Source: Parelaphostrongylus tenuis (Eukaryota; Nematoda; Chromadorea; Rhabditida; Metastrongylidae). Taken from it: a stretch of DNA of 64,000 nt. Position numbers and translations under genes: made by a program. Below the pieces are notes generated by a model. It was not told where the DNA came from. It saw nothing but the letters and a program-made list of their open reading frames with translations, and ran no database searches. Location: assembly GCA_019055375.1 (NCBI GenBank), contig JAHQIW010005342.1, positions 48,162-112,161 of the forward strand, read 5' to 3'. Positions 3,476 through 62,700 of the stretch are shown here, in pieces. The stretch's first letter is position 1. Each line of letters starts with the position of its first letter.

Positions 3476-3549
3476 GGCGTCAGCTGGGACTCAAACCCAG
3501 ATTTCACTCTTTCCAGGAGCGCGTGCTGAACCCTTGCATTACCGACGCT
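3476..3549 (-). repeat. tRNA-like sequence of a tRNA-bearing repeat (family D)
   Basis: On the minus strand this ~74-nt stretch has the layout of a tRNA gene. The outer bases GCGTC and GACGC pair as an acceptor stem. An A-box-like segment follows (GGTAATGCAAGGGTTCAGC), then a B-box-like GGGTTTGAGTCCC inside a T-arm hairpin. It is flanked on both sides by inverted copies of GTGTGCAAAA, so it sits at the centre of an inverted repeat rather than alone. Related copies lie at 21,785-21,858, 17,680-17,753 and 41,295-41,363. The repetition and weak anticodon stem favour a mobile tRNA-derived repeat over a functional tRNA. Confidence 0.6.
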
Positions 3550-6068: not shown

Positions 6069-6155
6069 AGATATTTGATCGACCACTCTCTTACGGACCT
6101 GCTCAAAATGATCTCATCTGATAAGGATCTGACATGTTTTGAGCCGATAGGTCTA

Positions 6156-6203
6156 GTGCTATATATTCGCCTATTTCGTCCTATTGGGACTCATCAGTAG
6201 CAC
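6156..6203 (-). ncRNA. Hammerhead ribozyme motif (family A), stem III damaged
   Basis: The minus strand reads GTGCTA, the core CTGATGA, a GTCC/GGAC stem II with loop CAATA, GAAA, then a stem-III region ending TATA and the closing TAGCAC. Stem I is a perfect 6 bp and every core base is present. Stem III is ATAGGCGAATAT instead of the palindromic ATAGGCGCCTAT, so it would pair poorly. Confidence 0.75.
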
Positions 6204-6470
6204 CCTCCATCGGTTCCGCCGATCTCTTGAGGTTAAATAATTTTATCGACTCAACATGTCATATCCTTATCAGATCAGATCATTTTGAGCGGGTCTATAA
6301 AAGATCGGTCGATAGTAGAGGTGTGTTCCATTATGAAAGCCGTAAGTTCTACTGCCGGTCACCACAACATCAGGTAATACCATCATCCGACTTGGGGTGA
6401 TTAATTTCTACTTGGCGTCTATTCCTTTAGAGAATTATTTAACCTCAACGGATCGACGGACCGAGGAAGG

Positions 6471-6518
6471 GTGCTATTGATGAGTCCCAATAGGACAACA
6501 TAGGTGCCTATATAGCAC
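6471..6518 (+). ncRNA. Degenerate hammerhead motif (family A)
   Basis: Stem I (GTGCTA/TAGCAC), stem II (GTCC/GGAC) and a near-palindromic stem III remain. The core reads TTGATGA for CTGATGA and AACA replaces GAAA, so catalysis is not expected. Confidence 0.7.
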
Positions 6519-6612
6519 TAGACCCGTGGCTCAAAACATGTCATATCCTTATCAGATTACATCAATATTTTCTTGAGAGGACATTTGATAGAAGAGTTAT
6601 TGTACCACATAG

Positions 6613-21784: not shown

Positions 21785-21858
21785 GCGTCAGTAGTGTAAC
21801 GGATAGAACACGTACTCCCGGAAAGAGTGAGGTGCGGATTCCAGTCCCGCCCGACGCG
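21785..21858 (+). repeat. tRNA-like sequence of family D
   Basis: GCGTC and GACGC pair as an acceptor stem. An A-box-like AGTAGTGTAACGGATAG, an ACTC/GAGT anticodon-like stem with a 7-nt loop, and a B-box-like GGATTCCAGTCC follow in tRNA order. The flanks (TGCGCTGTAGCGTGAAAAGAG upstream, TTTTGCACATCACTT downstream) match, in inverse orientation, those around 3,476-3,549, so the two are copies of one repeat. Confidence 0.6.
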
Positions 21859-30640: not shown

Positions 30641-31551
30641 TAGTAATTATTATTCCGAGGATAATAGGCAATAGGTCTTAAGAATCATTAAATACTAATT
30701 TCAGCAATCAGTAGTCATATTTCCAGCATTTGTCAGCACCAATTTACCCTCATCTATACCTACGAACAATCAGCAATTTACCACGTAATCCGTAGGTAAT
30801 TTTGGCAATCGATAGTTAGAGCCTCCTGTATTTTTACTGAGCCATTAGCACTTATCGGATAACTTAAGAAGTGAAGATTTCAAACCAAGTTTGGCTTTCG
30901 GAAAAGCCTACTTAATGTGGTATACTAACAAATAAACAATATTCCTCTCCTTTGGGATAGTTGACCCGTCGTTTGAACTTCAGCGCGTTTTGTTGGCGAT
31001 TTTATAATGAAGATTGGATCATGGGAGCACTTCATCATCACGGGTACCGACATATTATCGAGCAACTTTCCATGTCCTTTTGCGAACAGCATCAATTTCG
31101 GCTTGCGAGTGGCTCGGACGCCTACGAAGAGGGCTGCCAGCGCCTTATCCAAGGCTAATGTGGTAGTTCTTCAATGATACTCATACTTTTTTGTCCAGAT
31201 GGGATTTCTTTTGAAATGAATAGGCAAATGCAATAGCCCAGACTTCAGTAAGGTTTTTTATTAAAAATATTTTGATAGCTTTATTTGGAATTCACACTAT
31301 GCAAGGGAAAAACCAAGTATGATGAGGCTATAGTTAGAACCTTCGTCGAAACTATCTATGTTATTTTAATCATGCATACCTAAAATTTAATCAAATTTAT
31401 CTTTTATTACTTTCAGTTTTGAGTACCTTATTCATAAAATACATAAAATCCACCACCATACTGGCTGAAAATTAGAAAACAATGAATAGTTAGTCAGAGA
31501 CACTGCTGCTTATCGAGTTAGATCCCACCTCATCAATAATTATCAACATTT

Positions 31552-31635
31552 TTTGATCTGATAAGGATATGACATGTTTTGAGCCGCTCCAAATATCAGA
31601 TTTTTTCGTTTCAACCGGTTTGTAAAGAGCGGTCG
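31552..31635. repeat. Family A remnant at the left edge of duplication copy 2
   Basis: TTTGATCTGATAAGGATATG, ACATGTTTTGAGCC and the terminal AGAGCGGTCGATA match the two ends of family A with the middle lost. The terminal GATA runs straight into the first duplicated base, so the duplication junction coincides with this repeat's end. Confidence 0.75.
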
Positions 31636-31880
31636 ATAAGTGACGGATTCTGCACATACAATGTTGTAGATGTGGTTGTTAGTGATGAGGCTACTGATAC
31701 GCGAAACACATATGTTAGACAGAAGGCGGTATTTTCTCGTACGGACGATGGTGAAGGCAACACTCCCAGTACTTTTTTGCACGAAACAAGTATCGCACCA
31801 ATGAATCTAATTTGGAATACTTTTTTCAATATATCTCTCCAGAGACCTAGACGAATTATTTTATTGATAAAATTTTGTAC

Positions 31881-36764: not shown

Positions 36765-38170
36765 AGACTGGAAACGTAGCGATTAGTGCCCATCGAAAAG
36801 TTGTGTGCTGGGAACGCCTGCCGAGGAACCATCGAGCGAAGTTAAGAAGCAGTTGCAATTATTCAAAAAAACCGAGGCACCTGGAGAGGAGCAGAACAAT
36901 GAGGTATGCTGTTACGAGCTGCATGCGTGTTTTTAAGCGCATGTGAATCGTTCTGTGGATCAAGGCGCAGTTTGGTCAGAACTCTCACTCACTTCATATT
37001 TCTCTTTATAAGCCTCTATAATTTGAAATCACTACTTGATGCTCAATGAACAGCCTTCACAGCTATCTAACTAGCAAATTACAAAAGTAATAACGTGGTG
37101 TCATAGCTGTGATCTTATCCACAACTTGTACGGCTTCATTTATCTAGAAATTCACTATTTGGCAAATGACATGTCGAGTTTCGTACAGTCATAGCAAATA
37201 TCAGGCGCATAATAACTAATTTTCACTGGGAAAACTATTAGTAGCTAGGTAAGCACAGCAGCAAATAATACTAACCAGTCATCTTACATACAAATTGTCG
37301 TACGCTTTACTAAAGAATTCTGTCCTTCCATAGCGATTGTGTGCTGAAAAATTGGGCTATAGTGCTGTTTGTGGTGGAGTTGGGGCTATAGTGCTGTTTG
37401 TGGTGGAGTTGAGCAATTGAGACGTGAAAAAAAAAATCTTGTTCAGGTGATCGATGCCATCCCTTTTATCGAACAACAGTGCTCTGCACCATGCTCAGCT
37501 GACGTTCACTTCGTTTACCTTCTTTACGTCTCTTCTTTCACTCTTGCCGTTGTTATCATATTGCCATGGTTCCGGCATCCAGTAGCATTATCTGATCCCT
37601 CGCATCAAACTCTGTGTGAAAATGCTCTCATCTTGTCGTAAAGGTTTAAGAGCGAATAGGAAATTCATGTTCAATATTACAAGGTTTTACTCTATGAATA
37701 TAAAGGTTTGAATGTCGAGTTTGATACATGGTTCGATGACACATCTAGGCAAACTCGTAGGACCAGCACACGAGAAAAAAGAGCAAGTTCACAGTAGCGA
37801 TGATGTTTTATTGAACAACTTTGTATTCATGCTGCTGAATTCCTTGGGTTAGCCTCGTCAGGGCAACTTTAGTCTGTTTACCGTTTTAACTCTAGAAAAA
37901 TTAAATCGTTCTATAACATGGATTGCTGTGGTCCAACGGCTTGATCTATCCCCTTTCTCGGTTTCATATATTGCACATATGAAAAAACGAAGTACAACCG
38001 TGATTCACAAAAATCGACCCTGCCCACCACCTCTGTTCCTTGCTTCGGCTTGCTTTCTTGTTCTGCTAATAGTGGTTTCCACCATTTGGCGATCACTTGC
38101 ATTGATATCGATATATACAATGGTACACACCACTAGTCGTCATGCCGACCTTAAAGCACACAATTTTTGA
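36765..38170 (+). pseudogene. Downstream gene with hydrophobic exons (copy 2)
   Basis: Counterparts of the copy 1 pieces: an acidic exon ending at 36,902 before GTATGC; 37,447-37,641 (VIDAIPFIEQQ, a membrane-like VYLLYVSSFTLAVVIILPWF, stop TAA); and about 38,030-38,170 (LFLASACFLVLLIVVSTIW). The acidic exon carries an in-frame stop soon after its start in this copy, so the first part is broken. Confidence 0.35.
37354..37411. repeat. 29-bp tandem duplication
   Basis: The 29-bp unit beginning GGGCTATAGTGCTGTTTGTG occurs twice head to tail here and not in copy 1 (around 13,625), so it is a recent local duplication. Confidence 0.9.
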
Positions 38171-41401: not shown

Positions 41402-43338
41402 ATCACACCTGTATCACCTGTCGTCCCGTTGATCGTCGAGTGACTCGAGCGGGTACCAGCAACTCTTCCATTTTTCCCTATCGCGTGCAAGAGTAGCCCA
41501 GTGGGACCTCCTTGCTCTAGGAATTCGCTGAACATCATATCTTTCTTCCATCGCTTTCGTGAAGAAATCGGACCAACAGGTCAGTGGTCTTCCTTTAGAG
41601 CGCTTGACGTCCGAGGAATCCAGTCGGTAATGGCTCTCGTCCATCGGTTGCCGTAGAAGCGCATCACGTGTCCGGCCCACCTTATCTTCGATATCCTGGC
41701 GTGTAGAACGGCGTCTCTGATTTTCGATCGTTGACGTAGGTCGGAAGTTCGGATCCTTTGTCTCATTTGCGAAATACGAGATACTCCTAGCATCGACCTT
41801 TCGACTGCGCCTTCGATAACGGCAAGTGATCTTTCATCCTGCTTACGTAGCGACCAGGTTTCTGCTGCATACGTTAGGGCAGGGATAATTGTCGAGTCGA
41901 AAAGGTGGGCACGGAGTCGGATGTTCTTTGTCCTCTTCACTACATCTTCGATGCTCTTAAACGTTCCCCAAGCCGCTCGTTTCCTCCTGCTCAACTCTGG
42001 GGCTAGGTCGTTCATCATGTTGATTTCACGACCTAGATAGATGTAACTGGAGCATTCGGAAATTGTCGTTCCGTTGAGCGTGAATGGGGCATTAGAAACC
42101 CATCCGTTCCTCATGAACATTGTTTTCGTTAGATTCAGTTGAAGACCGATCTTTCCACAGGCGTTATCGAAATCAGTCAACATTCGTTCCGCTTGGCTGA
42201 TGTTTGGTGTTATGAGAACGATATCGTCAGCAAAGCGAAAATGGTTTAATTGTCGACCGTCAATTTTCACTCCCATTTCGTCCCATTCTAATGTTCGCAT
42301 GACGTTTTGTAGGGTGGCAGTGAATAGTTTTGGCGATATTGTATCGCCTTGTCGAACCCCTCTTCTTACGTCAATGGTGATATTGTTGTAGAATGGAGAT
42401 ATTCTGGTCGTGAAATCTTTATAAAGCTCACGAAGGATCATTATGTACCGAGTAGGGACGCCCTGGTTATCCAGAGCCTCTATAACCGCTTCTGTTTCCA
42501 CTGAATCAAAGGCTTTCTTCAGATCGATAAAAGTGAGACAGAGTGGTTGTTTGTACTCTCGCGAAACTTCAATGAGTCTTGTGATCGTGTGGATGTGGTC
42601 CATGGTACTAAATCCTTTTCTGAACCCTGCTTGTTCGCATGGCTGTCCTTCGTCCAGTGTTCTGTCAATCCTGTTCAGGATGACTCGAGTAAAGAGTTTA
42701 TAGACAACGGACAGCAAGCAGATTGGGCGATAATTGCCTATGTCGTGAAGGTCTCCCTTTTTGAACATCAATACGGTCTTGCTGGTTTTCCATTTAATAG
42801 GGACCTTGCATTCTGACAGGTAGCGAGTGAGGAGCCGGGCCAGGGTGTTGATGAGAACTGGCGGCAGGTTCTTCAGGTGTTCTGGTCTAATCCTGTCTGG
42901 ACCGGGTGTTGTTCTGTTTTTCACCGACGATATAGCATGTCGGATTTCGGAAGGAAGGACCGGTGGAACGACATATTCGTCCTCTTTCAATTTATATGAC
43001 GGTAAGAGAACATGGCTAGCGAAGAGGTCCGAGTAGTATTGGTGGATGATTTTCTCCATAGCCCTTCTGGAAGCTGTAAGTGTCCCGTCAGGGTATCGGA
43101 GTGCAATCATCTTGGTCTTATAGTTGGCGAAGCCTCGCTGGGCTTTGCGAATGCTCTTCCCAGCTTCTGCAGCTTCTGCCATAACTGCTGCTCTTCTCTC
43201 TTTAAGGTCTTCTTTTATCGCTTCTCTGCATCGTTTCGCAAGTTCGGACGTAAGCTTTCTGTTGCCTGCGACTCGTGCGATTCCACGTTGACGTATTTCG
43301 TGTATCAGATATATTTTATCCTTGTGTACAGAAGGCAA
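41402..43338 (-). pseudogene. RTE-type LINE: reverse transcriptase, 5'-truncated, one frameshift
   Basis: A 585-codon frame (43,338-41,581) is a non-LTR reverse transcriptase of the RTE clade. In order: a thumb-proximal basic N-terminal segment, TTPGPDRIRPEHLK (about residue 140), GNYRPICLLSVVYKLF (about 200), EQAGFRKGFSTMDHI (about 240), the first catalytic Asp in FIDLKKAFDSVE (about 270), RRGVRQGDTISPKLF (about 330), FADDIVLI with the paired Asp (about 368), then TYAAETWSLRK and RWAGHVMR. The last ~80 residues continue in another frame (KGRPLTCWSDFF...LDDQRDDR, ending near 41,414). One base has been lost in a G run near 41,611. The N-terminal apurinic-type endonuclease domain of complete RTEs is absent. 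It is intact apart from this, hence young or slow to decay. The 3' end is GGTGATACAGGTG. Confidence 0.93.
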
Positions 43339-43566
43339 GGGAATGGTGATCTATTTTGATAGGTTTTTTATAGCCCATCTGCATTCTTGATAGTGCTTGG
43401 ATTAGAAACTGATTCTTTCCTTTGGGGATTTTATACGCAGTTGTAAGGAAACTCTGAATGCTAGAATTATGAGCAGCACATGAAACAAATCTTCAATCTA
43501 CTTGTGACGTTGATTTGAGAAATCTTTCTTCTGCACAAGTACCTTTGAAGTTCCTGCAACGGAAGG

Positions 43567-48647: not shown

Positions 48648-48801
48648 TCGACCAAAACAATAGATGAAGCGAGAATGATAGTGAACGCAGCTTTTTGTGC
48701 AAGCTATATTTGCCAACTTGCTAGAATCCACTTTTCTCTCAAGGTATCACTACCAAATAAACAATTTGATAAGGATATAACATTCTATGAGCCATGTTGA
48801 A

Positions 48802-48847
48802 GTAATATACAGGTGCCTGCTCCGTCCTAGTGGGACTCATCAGTAGC
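48802..48847 (-). ncRNA. Hammerhead-like motif (family A), GAAA box lost
   Basis: CTGATGA, stem II GTCC/GGAC and a palindromic stem III (CAGG/CCTG) are kept. GAAA reads GGAG and stem I (GCGCTA against TATTAC) no longer pairs. Confidence 0.65.
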
Positions 48848-49103
48848 GCCACCTCTCGGTTTAGCCGATCCCTTGAGCCGATCTTATCCTCCTCTATGAA
48901 GGAATTGACACTGACTAATATATCACCTCAAGTCAGATTATGGGATTACCTGATACTGTGGTGACCGGCAGTCAATGTGGCTTTTAGGGCGAATCATAAC
49001 TCTTCAGGTAATTCCATCATCTTACTTGCGGTGATTTAATACTCGGCGTCGATTTCCTTCATAGAAGAGTATAACCTCAAGGGATCGGCTAAACCAATGG
49101 ACG

Positions 49104-49152
49104 GTGCCACTGATGAGCCACGATAGAACGAAAAAGGTGCCTGTATACCACT
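49104..49152 (+). ncRNA. Hammerhead-like motif (family A), stem II lost
   Basis: CTGATGA and GAAA are intact, but stem II (GCC...GAAC) and stem III are disrupted. Confidence 0.55.
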
Positions 49153-49232
49153 TAAACATAGCTCAGAACATGTTATATCCTCATCAGATTTTTCTTGCTT
49201 GAGCTAGGTCTGCAAAAGAGCGGTCGAAAGAA

Positions 49233-51079
49233 GAGTTATGAACAATTTAATCAATGAATCAGTTGCTTCCAGATCTTGTCTTTCACTGCACTTTTTGAAA
49301 GATTTTCTAGTCATTAGTTTCTATTCATACTGTTTTGGGCTGGCTGCTTCTAAGTGTATGCATGCTTAACCCTAAGGGGTGTCTCTAAAACTGATGAGCG
49401 CAAAGCGGTGAGCGATATTCGTTGTTCGAAGTTAATGAAATTCATAAATAACTGGCCAAGGACGATTGTTGTCGTCATGTTATCACATATTAGCTGTCTT
49501 ACGGCCTTATATGCTTTTGGTGGTAACCCGAGCTTTAGAGAAAGGGCCAAATTCCAATGTTTTCAAACGCGTATTCGGCGTCAGAGATAAGCCTTGTGAA
49601 AATAAATAGATTGACATCGAGTCTTTGTGTCATAAATATCATATCACCTCCTGATATAAATATATTCTCATCTTCTTTAATTCATGCGGATATCAGAGCA
49701 TCTTAGTTGCACAGATTCCAACTACAGTTCTTCGAAGCAATTTTTTCTGAACCGGTTCTAACATAACAAGTTTTTCAACTTTATATTCAACTTCAAACTC
49801 TATCTGCAAAAATCTTTTCTTGTTGGAGAATTTTTCCTAAGCTTGCTAGGTATACCGCCTTCCCTTCTGTTGTTGTGCATTAGCGACAAAGAAATGCTTT
49901 CAAGAATCCTTACAAAAGAACTGAGGCGAGTCGACAACGTGACTTGAATCAATCTAATAACATCCACAGCTTTCGATGTAATTCTTCTTTATCTGTCTCT
50001 TAAGAAAGAAAAGAATTTTTTTCGAGACTGTTCTAGTTATACAAAGATTGGCTGGTTTTTACAGAAGATGACGGGAGTACTTGTAAAACTTCTGGCTAAT
50101 TTGTATCTATGGAAAGGAAAACCGACCATTAAAGCTAGTAGAGAAGCCATTTACCACACTTGCTAGAGCGGTAGCATATTTCGCTTGCCTAGTTAGAGCG
50201 TCTTTTTCCAAGCTGTAACTTCGCAGTGAATGAAAACATTTCCTGTGTTTTACTTATCTACTGATGCAGCGGCGAAAATAAACATTCGAATGTAGGTGTC
50301 GTACTGGTTTTCGGCTTGGAAGGCTTTGCTGTGCTTTTCAGCCTGACACTCAAGAACACCTTTCAGCCCACGATGTTGTGATAAACCATTCTGGGGCCGA
50401 ACTGACTCTAAGCAAAATCGGGCATACATTTCCAATAATGCTATAACAAACTTCAAAACAAAAAATTCAAGGAAAAAGATAATAAGAATGTGAGTCGAAC
50501 CAAATGCGAGATTTTTACAGTACGTAATGAATGAGCGAGTCTAACAATTCTACTTCTCATGGTTGACATGCTGTTGCATGCTGAATAAGGCTATCGCTTA
50601 GACAAAATTTGCCTCTAGAAAGGTTAGCTGAACCGCAACAAGGTAGCGCCATAAACTCGACTGTGATCATTTATAACGTCCCAATACTGCCCATCGAGCT
50701 GTTAATGCTACACATCATCAACAGAGTTGACAAGGCACTTCGTGAATGGCGATCATGGTAGAAAATACAGTGGAAAGTGATTAGACTATGAGAAGCTACC
50801 GCTTCTTATTTCACCTACGTAAGCGCTCATTTTTCTGTTAATAAGGAAGCGTTAGCGTATACCTGAGAGGGGTTGAATTTTCTATTGAGCACTTTTGGCT
50901 TCTTAAGGAAGCATTCTACAATATCACGGAGACATTTAGTTTTTCCACTTTCATATATAAAATCAATTTTCCAAAGACAATGCCTCGAAGACTTTTACGA
51001 ATCACCTGTTTTCTTTGAAAACATTGCAATCAACAATTCTGAGGCCTCGCTCAAAACAGTATGATCTAACAATGTATTT
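49233..51079. other. No gene recognised
   Basis: Short frames only. I see no repeat copy or exon that I can support. Confidence 0.45.
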
Positions 51080-51116
51080 CTAGCGTTTCATGAGATCTGT
51101 CGTGGGCACTTATACA

Positions 51117-51159
51117 GCGCAAGACACGTGTTTCGGCCTCACATGTTTGTCAGTTGCAC
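51117..51159 (-). ncRNA. Hammerhead-like motif (family B), stems I and III kept
   Basis: The minus strand has GTGCAA closing with TTGCGC, the palindrome ACACGTGT and the triplet GTC. GAAA is intact. CTGACGA is changed to CTGACAA (G8 lost) and stem II is unpaired. Confidence 0.65.
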
Positions 51160-51357: not shown

Positions 51358-51399
51358 GTGCACTGACGAGGCTGTAAGACCTAAACACGTGCCTTGCAC
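51358..51399 (+). ncRNA. Hammerhead-like motif (family B), G12 lost
   Basis: CTGACGA and the CACGTG palindrome are intact; GAAA reads TAAA; stem I GTGCA/TGCAC is 5 bp; the cleavage triplet is lost (GCC). Confidence 0.6.
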
Positions 51400-51605
51400 T
51401 AGATATGTGCCTATAACAGACCTCATGAAAGGCTCAAAAGACATTTTTAGATTACACTGTTATCAGTTATTAACAATCCAATCCTGAGATCTTCGAAGTT
51501 AATTTGAGTAAACGACAATACTTCTGCTATCGACTGCTTTTTTACAGACTCGCTCAAAATGATTTAATCTGATAAGGATATGACATATTTTGAGCCATAG
51601 GTCTA

Positions 51606-51653
51606 GTGCTATATAGGCGCCTACTTCGTCCTATTGGGACTCATCAGTAGCAC
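51606..51653 (-). ncRNA. Hammerhead in array unit 1 (A15.1 changed to G)
   Basis: The minus strand has stem I GTGCTA/TAGCAC, CTGATGA, stem II GTCC/GGAC and stem III TAGGC/GCCTA, but GAAG in place of GAAA. This turns the conserved A15.1-U16.1 pair into a G-U wobble and probably slows or stops cleavage. Confidence 0.85.
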
Positions 51654-51886
51654 CTTCCCTCGGTTCCGTCGATCCCTTGAGGTCAAATAATCCTCTAAAG
51701 GAACCGACGCCGAGTAAAATTAAGCACCCAAAGTAGGATGATGGTATTACCTGACTTTGTGGTGACCGGCAGTCGAGTTTACGCTTTTAAAATGATCTAT
51801 ACTTCTGCTATCGACTGCTTTTTTACAGACTCGCTCAAAATGATTTAATCTGATAAGGATATGACATATTTTGAGCCATAGGTCTA

Positions 51887-51934
51887 GTGCTATATAGGCG
51901 CCTACTTCGTCCTATTGGGACTCATCAGTAGCAC
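51887..51934 (-). ncRNA. Hammerhead in array unit 2 (A15.1 changed to G)
   Basis: Same sequence as unit 1, including the GAAG change. The predicted cleavage point lies between 51,892 and 51,893. Confidence 0.85.
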
Positions 51935-52168
51935 CTTCCCTCGGTTCCGTCGATCCCTTGAGGTGAAATAATCCTCTAAAGGAACCGACGCCGAGTAAAA
52001 TTAAGCACCCAAAGTAGGATGATGGTATTACCTGACTTTGTGGTGACCGGCAGTCGAGTTTACGGCTTTTAAAATGATCTATACTTCTGCTATCGACTGC
52101 TTTTTTACAGACTCGCTCAAAATGATTTAATCTGATAAGGATATGACATATTTTGAGCCATAGGTCTA

Positions 52169-52216
52169 GTGCTATATAGGCGCCTACTTCGTCCTATTGG
52201 GACTCATCAGTAGCAC
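52169..52216 (-). ncRNA. Hammerhead in array unit 3 (A15.1 changed to G)
   Basis: Identical to units 1 and 2. The shared GAAG variant shows that these three units were amplified from one mutated unit. Confidence 0.85.
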
Positions 52217-52450
52217 CTTCCCTCGGTTCCGTCGATCCCTTGAGGTGAAATAATCCTCTAAAGGAACCGACGCCGAGTAAAATTAAGCACCCAAAGTAGG
52301 ATGATGGTATTACCTGACTTTGTGGTGACCGGCAGTCGAGTTTACGGCTTTTAAAATGATCTATACTTCTGCTATCGACTGCTTTTTTACAGACCCGCTC
52401 AAAATGATTTAATCTGATAAGGATATGACATATTTTGAGCCATAGGTCTA

Positions 52451-52498
52451 GTGCTATATAGGCGCCTATTTCGTCCTATTGGGACTCATCAGTAGCAC
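52451..52498 (-). ncRNA. Hammerhead ribozyme in array unit 4, intact
   Basis: The minus strand has GTGCTA, CTGATGA, GTCC-CAATA-GGAC, GAA, the palindrome ATAGGCGCCTAT, A, TAGCAC. All core positions match the hammerhead consensus. Predicted cleavage is after ATA, between 52,457 and 52,456 read on the minus strand. Confidence 0.92.
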
Positions 52499-52908
52499 CC
52501 TCCCTCGGTTCCGTCGATCCCTTGAGGTGAAACAATCCTCTAAAGGAACCGACGCCGAGTAAAATCAAGCACCCAAAGTAGGATGATGTTATTACCTGAC
52601 TTTGTGGTGACCGGCAGTCGAGCTTACGGCTTTTAAAATGAACTATACTTCTGCTATCGACTGCTTTTTTTATTTTTTTTATGGCTCAAAATAAGTCATA
52701 TCCTTATCAGATTAAATCATTTTGAGCGGGTCTGTAAAAAAAGCAGTCGATAGCAGAAGTATAGTTCATTTTAAAAGCCGTAAGCTCGACTGCCGGTCAC
52801 CACAAAGTCAGGTAATACCATCATCCTATTTTGGGTGCTTAATTTTACTCGGCGTCGGTTCCTTTAGAGGATTATTTCACCTCAAGGGATCGACGGAACC
52901 GAGGGAGG

Positions 52909-52956
52909 GTGCTACTGATGAGTCCCAATAGGACGAAATAGGCGCCTATATAGCAC
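52909..52956 (+). ncRNA. Hammerhead ribozyme in the inverted unit, intact
   Basis: This is a type I layout (open stem I) on the plus strand. Stem I is GTGCTA/TAGCAC (6 perfect pairs). The core is CTGATGA. Stem II is GTCC/GGAC with loop CAATA. GAA is followed by stem III, a 12-nt perfect palindrome ATAGGCGCCTAT, and the cleavage triplet ATA. It is the same ribozyme as unit 4 in reverse orientation, so transcripts of either strand could self-cleave. Confidence 0.93.
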
Positions 52957-53223
52957 TAGACCTATGGCTCAAAATATGTCATATCCCTATCAGATTAAAC
53001 GACAATACTTGATTGAAAAAAGCGGATGGATGGTAAAATATAGGAGATCTAATCAGCTTTGTGTCTCCAGAAACGACCAATTTTTAATAAATAGTAGTTT
53101 TTCATATGATCTATCGATTAATCACCAGTGTCGATGTTTACTAATTTATCAAGACTAAACAGAGAAAATTCGAAGATGTGAATGCTTTTTTTCATAGATA
53201 TCACAAGTGAGCAGAAGCTTTAG

Positions 53224-53812: not shown

Positions 53813-54143
53813 AGCCTTGAAGATAAAGGATAAAAGGATAAAGCTCTCGGCGTTAATCAATCCCTGAGGGATGCGCCATGCATTCGACTTCAATTTTTAA
53901 CTTCGTATGAGGTTATTGAATGCACATCTGGCCTTTACAATGACTCGCGGTGGCCTCCCGCTAAACCGAGTAAGTGCTGCTTATCCTCCCAGACAAGTCT
54001 GAGACCTGTCTGGTACCAATTTACCGACCCCGGAGGGATGGATGGCTTGGTGAGCCATGAGCGCGAAATTGAACCAGTGACCTCGTGTGCGACGCAGGGC
54101 ACCTCTAACCACTGCGCCATATGCGCTCATAGCCTTGAAGATA
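53813..54143 (-). mobile_element. tRNA-headed SINE with perfect 13-bp target duplications
   Basis: The element is 53,826-54,130, read on the minus strand. AGCCTTGAAGATA flanks both sides (53,813-53,825 and 54,131-54,143). The 5' head is tRNA-like: GAGCGC pairs with GCGCTC as acceptor stem, A-box TGGCGCAGTGGTTAGAGG, B-box GGTTCAATTTC. The body contains GGTAAATTGGTACC and AGCGGGAGGCCACCGCGAG. The 3' end is made of short TTTATCC-type repeats. Length, promoter boxes, tail and duplications together define a LINE-mobilised SINE; a diverged copy is at 28,090-28,396. The tail does not match the RTE 3' end in this window, so its partner LINE is unknown. Confidence 0.93.
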
Positions 54144-56401: not shown

Positions 56402-56582
56402 AATTTTCCAAGATAAGGATATGACATATTTTGAGCCATAGGTCTAGTGCTATAGAACTTAGGACGAAATAGGCGCCTATATAGCACTAGACCTATGGCT
56501 CAAAATATGTCATATCCTTATCAGATTAAATCATTTTGAGCGGGTCTGTAAAAAAACAGTCGTTAGCAGAAATTTTCCAAGA
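56402..56582. mobile_element. Short family A element with 12-bp target duplication
   Basis: The element (56,414-56,570) is flanked by AATTTTCCAAGA at 56,402-56,413 and 56,571-56,582. It starts TAAGGATATGACATATTTTG and ends CAGTCGTTAGCAG, the same two ends as the 51.5-53.0 kb array read in reverse. An internal deletion has fused the forward and inverted halves at about 56,455 (GCTATAG/AACTTAGGAC) and removed the CTGATGA half of the ribozyme, leaving GAAA, the palindrome and TAGCAC. Confidence 0.9.
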
Positions 56583-59551: not shown

Positions 59552-59612
59552 CCCCACCCTCTCCTACCCGCCCCACCCTCTCCTACCCGCCCCTCCCTCC
59601 TTTCCCCCACAT
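59552..59612. repeat. C-rich tandem repeat (G-rich on the minus strand)
   Basis: About three imperfect copies of an 18-19-bp unit (CCCCACCCTCTCCTACCCG) end in CCCCTCCCTCC and CCCCCAC. The minus strand has at least six runs of three or more G within 60 nt, enough for a G-quadruplex. It sits 27 bp before a hammerhead-like motif. Confidence 0.85.
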
Positions 59613-59638
59613 GGGATTGTCTGAATCCAAACGGCACC

Positions 59639-59680
59639 GTGTTTCGATGAGGCCACAAGGCCGAAACGTACGTCAAGCAC
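59639..59680 (+). ncRNA. Hammerhead-like motif, GTC cleavage site, core C3/U4 changed
   Basis: Stem I GTGTTT/AAGCAC (6 pairs with one wobble), stem II GGCC/GGCC with loop ACAA, GAA, the palindrome ACGTACGT and the triplet GTC are all present. The CTGATGA box reads TCGATGA. TAGTACTG and, further on, CTCAAAATGTGTTATCAGA show that this is a distant family A relative (to about 59,755). Confidence 0.75.
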
Positions 59681-59759
59681 TAGTACTGCCATATAAAAAT
59701 CAAGAAAGGCTCAAAATGTGTTATCAGATTATATCGATTCGAGCAACATCTAAAAAAAC

Positions 59760-62700
59760 AGTTGTATATATAAGAAAAATTCATCAGCTGCAAACTCGCT
59801 GTTTGCATTATAAGACGTGATACAAATGATTGAACTGCGTCTCTGGTTGCTGCGATGCCAAAAGCCTTCGTACGAACAGTGGCATTAGTACAGTAAACCA
59901 TGTTTATAGGCAAATTGAAGCTAGTGACGGTGAAGTTCCTGGTGCTCGCTGCAACGAAATTTCGTGGTATTTGCAGTAAATAATAGAAAGCAAAATCATC
60001 CTGTGGAATGGACTATTTCGAAATTTTTTCGGTTGTCTTTTGTTGGACGGGAGCAAATGAAGAAACGACCCTTTTTGCTGACGAGCTTCCAATAAAAGCC
60101 TTGGTAATTAGTCTAAAGCTTACATCTTGGGGGAGTGATGGACGTCGTCATTTTCTAAAAGGCGCTTTTGTAGCCTGCAGCACTCCAGTATAATTATCTT
60201 TTGTAGCAACTTCACATTTTTATCATTACTTCGCTGGAAGCACGAGAAACACAAGAACGTATAGAAGAGGTATCTGTTGTGTCATAGTCATACGTTTTGT
60301 CTGGCTTTTCTTTCAAAGCGAAGAGAAGACCTAAAATCAATGAGAAATATTGCACCACATATTTGAATTGCGCCAGCTCAATCGATTGGTCTGGCTTCGA
60401 TCAACGACCACGTGCACACGTTAACCAACAAGCAAAGCGCAGCTTATACGTAATTAATCCTATTTTCACTGCTACAGTGCGGTAAAACGGTCTTTCCTAA
60501 AATATGCATGACGTTGAAATCGTCGCAATTTACGATATCGAATGGTTGAGTACAAATCAAAGGAACAGCGTTGTCCAGCTAAAAATGCGCATGTCCGAAA
60601 CAGAAAACTTTTCCTTTTGCTGCAGCGCTGTAAAAGCTTCCAAAAAATAGGCACGTACAGCAGTTCTCTCAGATCTAAACTTTCGAATGGTTACTAACAC
60701 TCTTATGAAAAGCTCTTGTGCAGCGAAAGGTGTCGTTTCTTCATTTGTTTACGTTGAACAAAATAAAAGCCTTTTGACTCTCTGTTAAAAAGATAAATCT
60801 GCTGTTCACTTCTGCATGCCATTCAACATAACTGGATGTATATTTGTGACATCATATTGCCGTTAAAGCGATTGAATAAAAAGAGTTTGAGATGAGTCAC
60901 AAAATCATGATCACTTAGTTCAGATTACGCCAGTTTCCTAATAGTGATGAAGGTCAGAAATGTCACTCTAATCGAGGCTCGTGAAATCATGTTTAACATT
61001 CAAATTGTTTGCTCTACGAATACAATCTGTCAGTTGTTACTTTGACGTGGTGGTATCACTCCACATCCTATCACTTTGGGGATGGCTAGGACAAAAATGA
61101 CAAGTGGTCTATTCGGAAGTATCGGCATGTTATTAAAGTGCCTAATTTGATGTAAAACTTGATGAACATTGTACATATGATTGGAGCCAAACTACTCATT
61201 TCTTATCAGATCAATCATGAGGAAGCAATGGATTCGGAACTGGGCACTTGAATGTGATGATGCCAGCGTGGCAGACGTTCCTGCAGCTCTCCAATTCCTT
61301 AACAAAGTTTTATAGGTGACAAGTACTAAATTTAGACTTGAAATGCCTCGATGTAACATATAAAGCAGATTATACTGATCTAGGACATATACAATTTTTT
61401 CTTTGCGCAAAGAACTTTATGTCAAATGTCATGCGAAAACGGTCCACGTGGAAACGATCTCTCTAAAAGAAGCTTTTCATTGAAGACGGTTGTATTTGCT
61501 GTTGCAGTAGTGTGTTGAGTTTTGGGTTAGTCTTTAGCACACAGTAGTTACTAACTCAAATCAGAATGTTCCATTTTGTGATGATTCGCAAGCGGGTCTT
61601 TTCACGTAAGCTCCGAAAACAATTTACGTTTGAGTTAATAACTGTTTATAGCAATAATAACTATGTAATAGCCATCTAAGGATATACATTTGAGTGAATA
61701 GATATGAAAGAAGTTGGATGAGTTGAAACACTGGAACACTGAAGCTATGGGACTTTCTCCGGTGTTTAGTGGGGTCAAATTTAATAGGGGCGACGATGAA
61801 GGTCGATCTGATAAAGCTGCACTAAGGGGTAAGCACAAAGGGTTACAAATGTACAAGATATGAGAAAGAAAGTTCAGAACACAAAAGCTAAAAGATCAAT
61901 TGCAACTATATTACATCTTGAGTCAAAGGTTCAAGTAAATCTAGGTAATTTAGGTAGCCTAAACAATATAGAATTAGGAATATTCGTATAATACTTTCTA
62001 TAAAGCTAACACGTCAGGTACCACGGCATAAACTAGGTTTGCTTGATTTCATTTCTGTTTCTGCGACATAAAAATCGTGAGATTCTCAGAAGAATACTTG
62101 GAATCGACAGAGCGCCGCTGTTCAAATTGCACTCGTGAAAGAAAATCTGCTAACAAAGATATAATTTTGTGAAAACGCAGCCATGTCTCAAGCGAAATAT
62201 TTCGCCGCTAAATTTCAATATTTCAAAGCATTTTTAACCTGTGCTAATCACATTCGCTCTGCTCCGTCTCCTTGGTTTCAATGCTATGGAATCCCCTGTG
62301 TTGATAGAGAGGATGACCGATAGCTAAGAAAAGAACACATACGGAATGTTACTGGGAGACTAGGGAGGTGGATCGGGATAGTGTGATATTAAGAATCCAC
62401 TAAAATAAAAAAAATTAAGAAAATACCTATACTGAGCAACCAAGTTCTGCGGAGACTTAGGAATTTGCTTTCCTGGAACTTCCAATGTATTACTATGGAA
62501 AAGGAAAATGGACGTCTATAATAAAAGATTGAAGTGCAGCGTGCGGATCTTTTTTCGTACGCCTTTTGAAGAATCTAATTTTTATGAAAGAGGTGGGTGT
62601 TTGTGAAGGCTTTTCATTTCTCGCACTTCTCCTTGATGTTCAGGCAAAAGAAAATTCATTATTACACATTTCGTAAAGTGGGATGCCATTCTGCTCCTGC

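Follow-up and report, generated by a model that had tools for sequence, protein, structure and literature searches.

Head-to-head copies of a hammerhead ribozyme repeat in the nematode Parelaphostrongylus tenuis: a probable retrozyme family with Penelope-like insertion anatomy

Metazoan non-LTR retrozymes are described, in the main text of Cervera and de la Pena (2020; PMC7229834), as non-coding tandem repeats of 150–450 bp with a type I hammerhead ribozyme, a GC content under 50%, target-site duplications of more than 4 bp and self-paired RNA. Penelope-like elements (PLEs) have been proposed as the movers of animal retrozymes on the grounds that the two kinds of element co-exist, share type I hammerheads and are both found as tandem copies (PMC7229834, main text). 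Adineta Penelope copies possess an inverted pseudo-LTR, duplications of 8–10 bp (none in some copies) and an optional 31-bp tail at one inverted end, head to head being the commonest arrangement in the accessible text of PMC3846280. In the Anolis PLE, two nearby reverse transcription (RT)-start sites delimit the tail, and both strands are cleaved and extended (PMC11167929). Among helminths, type I hammerheads are found in the repeats of Schistosoma mansoni W-elements and related hammerhead satellites, and a target-site duplication is indicated for one element of this group (PMC8490949, main text).

As for nematodes, neither a retrozyme nor a natural hammerhead repeat is described in the open-access main texts listed here. 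The main text of the P. tenuis genome paper mentions neither Penelope nor ribozymes (PMC10940269). Repeat annotation has reported Penelope elements in two other nematodes, the Pristionchus annotation not separating Penelope from LINEs (PMC9297572, PMC7960049, accessible text). Here, we describe a hammerhead repeat family found within a 64-kb stretch of the P. tenuis genome (hereafter, the window), which has a GC content of 0.40, as compared with 40.07% for the genome (PMC10940269, main text). Within the literature covered by those open-access texts, the repeat would add nematodes to the known retrozyme hosts. The kind of element is already known in animals, and we regard the hammerhead retrozyme as provisionally new for nematodes. 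The surprising part is the insertion anatomy common to independent copies: non-coding copies appear to bear a Penelope-like insertion scar, which makes the question of the mover testable.

The most complete copy, C, is organized as follows (unit positions q1–282 correspond to window positions 52346 down to 52065):

51509..51523: left target-site duplication TAAACGACAATACTT, its last bases overlapping the element
51518..52999: copy C, the entire head-to-head insertion, a minus-sense tandem array plus one plus-sense unit
51518..51782, minus strand: unit 1 (q2-266), ribozyme at 51606-51653 with G15.1
51783..52064, minus strand: unit 2, ribozyme at 51887-51934 with G15.1
52065..52346, minus strand: unit 3, the reference unit (q1 = 52346), ribozyme at 52169-52216 with G15.1
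52347..52628, minus strand: unit 4, with an intact ribozyme
52451-52498, minus strand: type I hammerhead of unit 4, cut predicted between 52457 and 52456 (RF00163, 29.5 bits, and structure)
52629..52670, minus strand: partial fifth unit (q241-282), the 5' end of the minus-sense arm
52671..52679: junction filler between the arms, A+T only
52680..52999, plus strand: inverted arm, from q185 through one unit to q221
52909-52956, plus strand: type I hammerhead of the inverted unit, cut predicted between 52950 and 52951 (RF00163, 29.5 bits)
52996..53010: right target-site duplication TAAACGACAATACTT, its first bases overlapping the element

Array C thus consists of four 282-bp units placed head to tail and a partial unit, with no coding sequence between them. 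Unit GC is 0.43–0.44, and the sense unit, when folded as a circle, has 58–61% of its bases paired (z about -4.5). Tandem non-coding units with a hammerhead, a GC content under 50% and self-paired RNA are all features shared with metazoan retrozymes. The differences are the head-to-head inverted copies and recurrent outer ends seen here, the present family being described from its DNA; neither "inverted" nor "nematod" occurs in the main text of PMC7229834. W-elements belong to a different phylum, and "head-to-head" is absent from the main text of PMC8490949.

The motifs of unit 4 and of the inverted unit, 48 nt each, form complete type I hammerheads with a conserved core, three helices and an open stem I. 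Stem I has 6 bp (GUGCUA/UAGCAC) and the core consists of CUGAUGA and GAA, with A at H17; the CUGAUGA starts at q137 and the predicted cut follows q172. Stem II has 4 bp (GUCC/GGAC) and a CAAUA loop, so that GUCC CAAUA GGAC nearly equals the Rfam consensus GUCC CAAAUA GGAC. Stem III is a perfect 12-nt palindrome, AUAGGCGCCUAU, which would form 4 bp with a GCGC loop in a monomer and 12 bp between two molecules. Coordinates, strands, both stem lengths and the palindrome all agree with the original prediction of intact ribozymes in a unit and its inverted partner. Units 1–3 contain the same motif, complete except for A15.1, which is replaced by G.

In the covariance scoring that had been proposed as a check, RF00163 matched unit 4 and the inverted unit with 29.5 bits (E 0.0034) and units 1–3 with 28.2 bits (E 0.0092), E-values being computed for 64 kb and 4227 families; none of the array hammerheads reached the gathering score of 34 bits, at which the window scan returned one tRNA only. 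The type I reading is upheld by the complete core and helices and by a strict structural descriptor that requires the core and minimum lengths of 5 bp for stem I, 3 bp for stem II and 4 bp for stem III: its five matches in the window all lie in array C (unit 4, the inverted unit and units 1–3), as compared with none in 150 first-order Markov simulations of the 64-kb window. The loose pattern CTGANGA(3-25)GAAA occurs 13 times in the window against 5.84 expected, a count reached by none of 100 shuffles, and only 4 of the 13 matches come from the repeat family.

The units of array C are not equally related. Units 2 and 3 have one and the same sequence, from which unit 1 differs at a single site. 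Unit 4 departs from units 2/3 at seven sites, four of which (6, 129, 160, 234) it has in common with the inverted unit; 269T is common to the inverted unit and the partial fifth unit. The unit 4 base at site 160 is also present in D, in both arms of A and in B-right, with G in B-left. As judged from these few copies, G15.1 of units 1–3 therefore looks derived and may have been amplified locally after insertion.

Searches with blastn and nhmmer recovered six copies of the family within the window, namely C and the following (the tail site is the farther of the two end sites described below):

6074..6603: copy A, older head-to-head insertion, both outer ends at the tail site, right end from a weak gapped alignment
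31543..31640: copy E, fragment, minus arm q188-230 by alignment, plus arm by eye only
48760..48767: probable left target-site duplication of B, AACAATTT
48768..49240: copy B, older head-to-head insertion, minus arm q257 round to q213, plus arm q30 to ~q267
49241..49248: probable right target-site duplication of B, AACAATTT
56402..56412: left target-site duplication of D, AATTTTCCAAG (12 bp with the next A counted)
56413..56570: copy D, short head-to-head insertion, minus arm q171-213, plus arm q151-262
56571..56581: right target-site duplication of D, AATTTTCCAAG
59602..59798, plus strand: copy F, divergent member (about 62%), nhmmer E 9e-6

In all four analysable copies (A, B, C and D), a minus-sense and a plus-sense arm are joined at their 5' sides, i.e., head to head; in A, B and D each arm is shorter than two full units. 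The inverted partner of unit 4 is hence present as had been noted, within a layout that proved common to the family rather than particular to this pair.

The ribozymes of the older copies vary in preservation. In A-left the core is preserved and stem III has three closed pairs, and this ribozyme is also matched by Hammerhead_HH9 (25.5 bits, E 0.05); those of A-right, B-left and B-right are decayed. Copy F was retrieved through whole-unit similarity and not through the motif. In this one sequence, partitioned by hand, every pair of the three helices is kept, although both bases have changed in one pair of stem I, in one of stem II and in the inner pairs of stem III; the core lacks one CUGAUGA base. 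Its stem III is again palindromic, and a monomer with a 4-nt loop could close only two pairs. The re-paired helices of this single sequence may point to past constraint on the hammerhead fold.

We found that the outer ends of the insertions cluster at two places in the unit, 39–49 and 83–97 nt beyond the predicted cut, and the inner ends scatter. The outer ends of B, C and D were set according to their duplications; the counts took in A–D, E being omitted for its inexact ends and F for having no visible end. Short-site ends are those of B left (q213), C right (q217-221) and D left (q211-213). Tail-site ends are those of A left (q255-259), A right (~q269, weak alignment), B right (q266-268), C left (q260-266) and D right (q261-262). 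The inner ends lie at q93 and about q185-195 in A, q257 and q30 in B, q241 and q185 in C, and q171 and q151 in D. With hand-entered midpoints, the span on the circle of 282 nt is 57 nt for the outer ends and 219 nt for the inner ones; on a uniform null, P is 0.00014 and 0.95, respectively. B, C and D (three of the four) combine one short and one tail end, and A has two tail ends. A reading by BLAST extents, in which every copy had a short and a tail end, was dropped when nhmmer placed the right arm of A at ~q269, with low posterior values. We likewise rejected the ribozyme cut as the cDNA 5' end: only one of the eight inner ends, that of the D minus arm (56454-56460), lies 2 nt from the predicted cut. 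For a hairpin at the RT-start site, drawn from the circular fold, covariation was not found, and extra conservation of the RT-start region was not significant (571 of 2000 shuffles reached the best window, which is itself another one).

Target-site duplications are perfect in C (15 bp) and D (11–12 bp) and probable in B (8 bp); as in metazoan retrozymes, they exceed 4 bp. Their match scores of 15, 12 and 8 compare with a best score of 7, reached by 16 pairs, among 400 random end pairs. Neither A nor E has a clear duplication at the ends considered, the scores being 6 and 4, and up to 6 with other ends.

Taken together, the anatomy agrees with that of PLEs in the head-to-head inverted terminal unit (all four copies), the short target-site duplications (C, D, probably B, absent in A) and the optional tail at one end (PMC3846280, accessible text; PMC11167929), as well as in the type I hammerhead located upstream of the RT-start sites (PMC11167929). 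The likeness to retrozymes and PLEs, already raised in the original prediction, is upheld by the non-coding tandem hammerhead units and this head-to-head anatomy. By our own arithmetic from PMC11167929, the main Anolis RT start lies 85–92 nt past the ribozyme cut, as compared with 39–49 and 83–97 nt here. In contrast to PLEs, the repeat copies carry no ORF for a reverse transcriptase with a GIY-YIG domain, the unit was found to be without coding capacity, unit 4 has a longer stem III than the minimal ribozymes described for PLEs (PMC7761336, accessible text), and the tail interval is about 39–54 nt against 30–40 bp described. A coding unit was considered and rejected. Sense frame 0 has one stop in 94 codons (282 being a multiple of three), leaving 93 open round the circle, and no ATG; in A and B, substitutions fall on all three codon positions and create further stops, so that the open frame looks like chance. 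The 2, 0 and 5 differences between units 4 and 3 at first, second and third positions are too few to weigh.

In our view the family is probably a non-autonomous strongylid retrozyme, mobilized in trans by a Penelope-like enzyme for which both DNA strands serve as primers. A multi-unit copy would be transcribed and the type I hammerhead of each unit would release monomers of 282 nt from the RNA; a host ligase may then close these into circles. A Penelope-like reverse transcriptase/endonuclease would then recognize the RNA downstream of the ribozyme and cut both DNA strands with a stagger of about 8–15 bp. DNA synthesis would begin from both cut ends at the two preferred sites, 39–49 and 83–97 nt past the ribozyme cut, and the two cDNAs would end at variable points before being joined head to head. 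Recurrent sense-3' ends, variable 5' ends and a duplication are what is expected if each cut strand primes reverse transcription internally and the cDNAs are joined. Only tentatively do we go further and propose that integration is a two-sided target-primed reaction, in which a Penelope-like enzyme would use both cut DNA strands as primers on RNA processed by the ribozyme, perhaps a single circle, with two adjacent start sites. Every new copy would then be a head-to-head pair, and ribozyme, start sites and tail would form a portable recognition module common to retrozymes and PLEs. If true, two-sided priming would be direct anatomical evidence for the mover of animal retrozymes. Several findings speak against the model of a Penelope-like mover: no Penelope protein and no GIY-YIG domain was seen in the 15 scanned of the 21 window ORFs of at least 100 aa, A and E have no clear duplication, the tail interval is longer than described, neither covariation nor significant extra conservation marks the start site, two of the four copies (B and C) would equally suit twin priming by a LINE, and both intact ribozymes can be hidden in a duplex. 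As Anolis ribozyme mutants had no effect on insertion in vitro and the ribozyme cut only with protein present (PMC11167929), the ribozyme may, by analogy, be dispensable for insertion itself. An alternative route to the same anatomy would be self-priming on an antisense template, favoured for Adineta in the accessible text of PMC3846280.

The 282-bp unit might instead be the pseudo-LTR of an autonomous PLE, the window holding solo or ORF-less derivatives; insertion would then be the same and the repeat would not be an independent retrozyme. The anatomy equals that of PLE copies, descriptions exist both of solo pseudo-LTRs and of pseudo-LTR inserts that lack the coding sequence of the element itself (PMC3846280, accessible text), type I hammerheads occur in PLE pseudo-LTRs (PMC11167929; PMC7761336, accessible text), and stem III of F can be very short. 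Yet C is composed of whole 282-bp units head to tail with no coding sequence between them, and PLE hammerheads are minimal, without helix III or loop contacts in the accessible text of PMC7761336, whereas unit 4 has a stem III of at least 4 bp; on balance we find this reading unlikely. That a LINE enzyme, e.g., of the RTE-like family of the window, moves the repeat appears improbable to us as well. The inverted arm would in that case arise by twin priming, the second strand priming further upstream on the same RNA. An RT ORF is indeed present at 41581-43350, and by hand arithmetic the inner end of one arm in B and C lies about 10 and 20–24 nt from the start of the other, as expected from twin priming. 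However, A and D do not fit, their nearest such distances being about 60 nt or more, blastn of the window found no 3' end shared with the LINE, and both arms start at internal unit sites.

With their inverted repeats at either end and a tandem array, the copies could also be taken for foldback or MITE-like DNA transposons, or for a satellite that recombination or an assembly error has rearranged. We hold this very improbable. The duplications vary in length (15, 11–12 and 8 bp), and interiors and internal junctions differ between copies; neither the constant duplication length nor the conserved interior and fixed inverted termini of MITEs were found in the family. The same anatomy at several unrelated sites with distinct flanks would hardly be given by an assembly error. 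No Pol III B box was found within two mismatches on either strand of unit 4, and A-box-like matches need one mismatch.

The intact ribozymes of unit 4 and the inverted unit sit one in each arm of an inverted repeat of 265 nt, the arms being 98% complementary. For one transcript spanning 52347-52999, the predicted fold is a long duplex that contains both ribozymes, at -514.5 kcal/mol as compared with a mean of -159.3 for 20 shuffles. For the self-cleavage of transcripts from either strand that had been predicted, this poses a specific difficulty, as the long duplex can hide both intact ribozymes. Transcripts starting inside one arm, or inside units 1–3 (with G15.1), would escape the duplex in this model. 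In vivo, the RNA could be cleaved only if transcription began inside one arm or if a ribozyme folded ahead of the synthesis of the second arm. The microRNA families that scored in the Rfam scans were discarded, being below gathering, and the matches within 52608-52800 arise from the long inverted repeat.

In the scanned ORFs a single Pfam match exceeds its cut-off, RVT_1 (E 1.3e-34) in the 589-aa ORF at 41581-43350 on the minus strand. This ORF resembles strongylid LINE proteins, many of which also have an endonuclease domain (PF03372). Among the best 120 of 2523 matches, three P. tenuis proteins show 95–98% identity over 47–56% of the length; other named matches reach at most 84% (Angiostrongylus cantonensis), some unnamed ones 86%. 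These matches support the nematode origin of the window. Searches for an exact 28-mer in viral contigs and a 24-mer in bacterial and archaeal contigs gave no matches, a result of no weight for nematodes.

Several other features were recorded in the window. Tandem repeats are located at 37354-37411 (29-nt unit x 2.0, 100%) and at 59552-59599 (19-nt unit x 2.5, 96%), the latter adjoining copy F. Two tRNA-Ser with anticodon GGA are predicted at 3476-3548 (minus) and 21785-21858 (plus), only the first being given by Rfam at gathering; they may be tRNA-like repeats. The region at about 54040-54130 (minus) appears tRNA-like by eye, reminiscent of a tRNA-derived SINE, and has no ARAGORN match. Just left of C, 51050-51154 and 51362-51466 form a 105-nt inverted repeat, 76% complementary and 207 nt apart, perhaps an old MITE.
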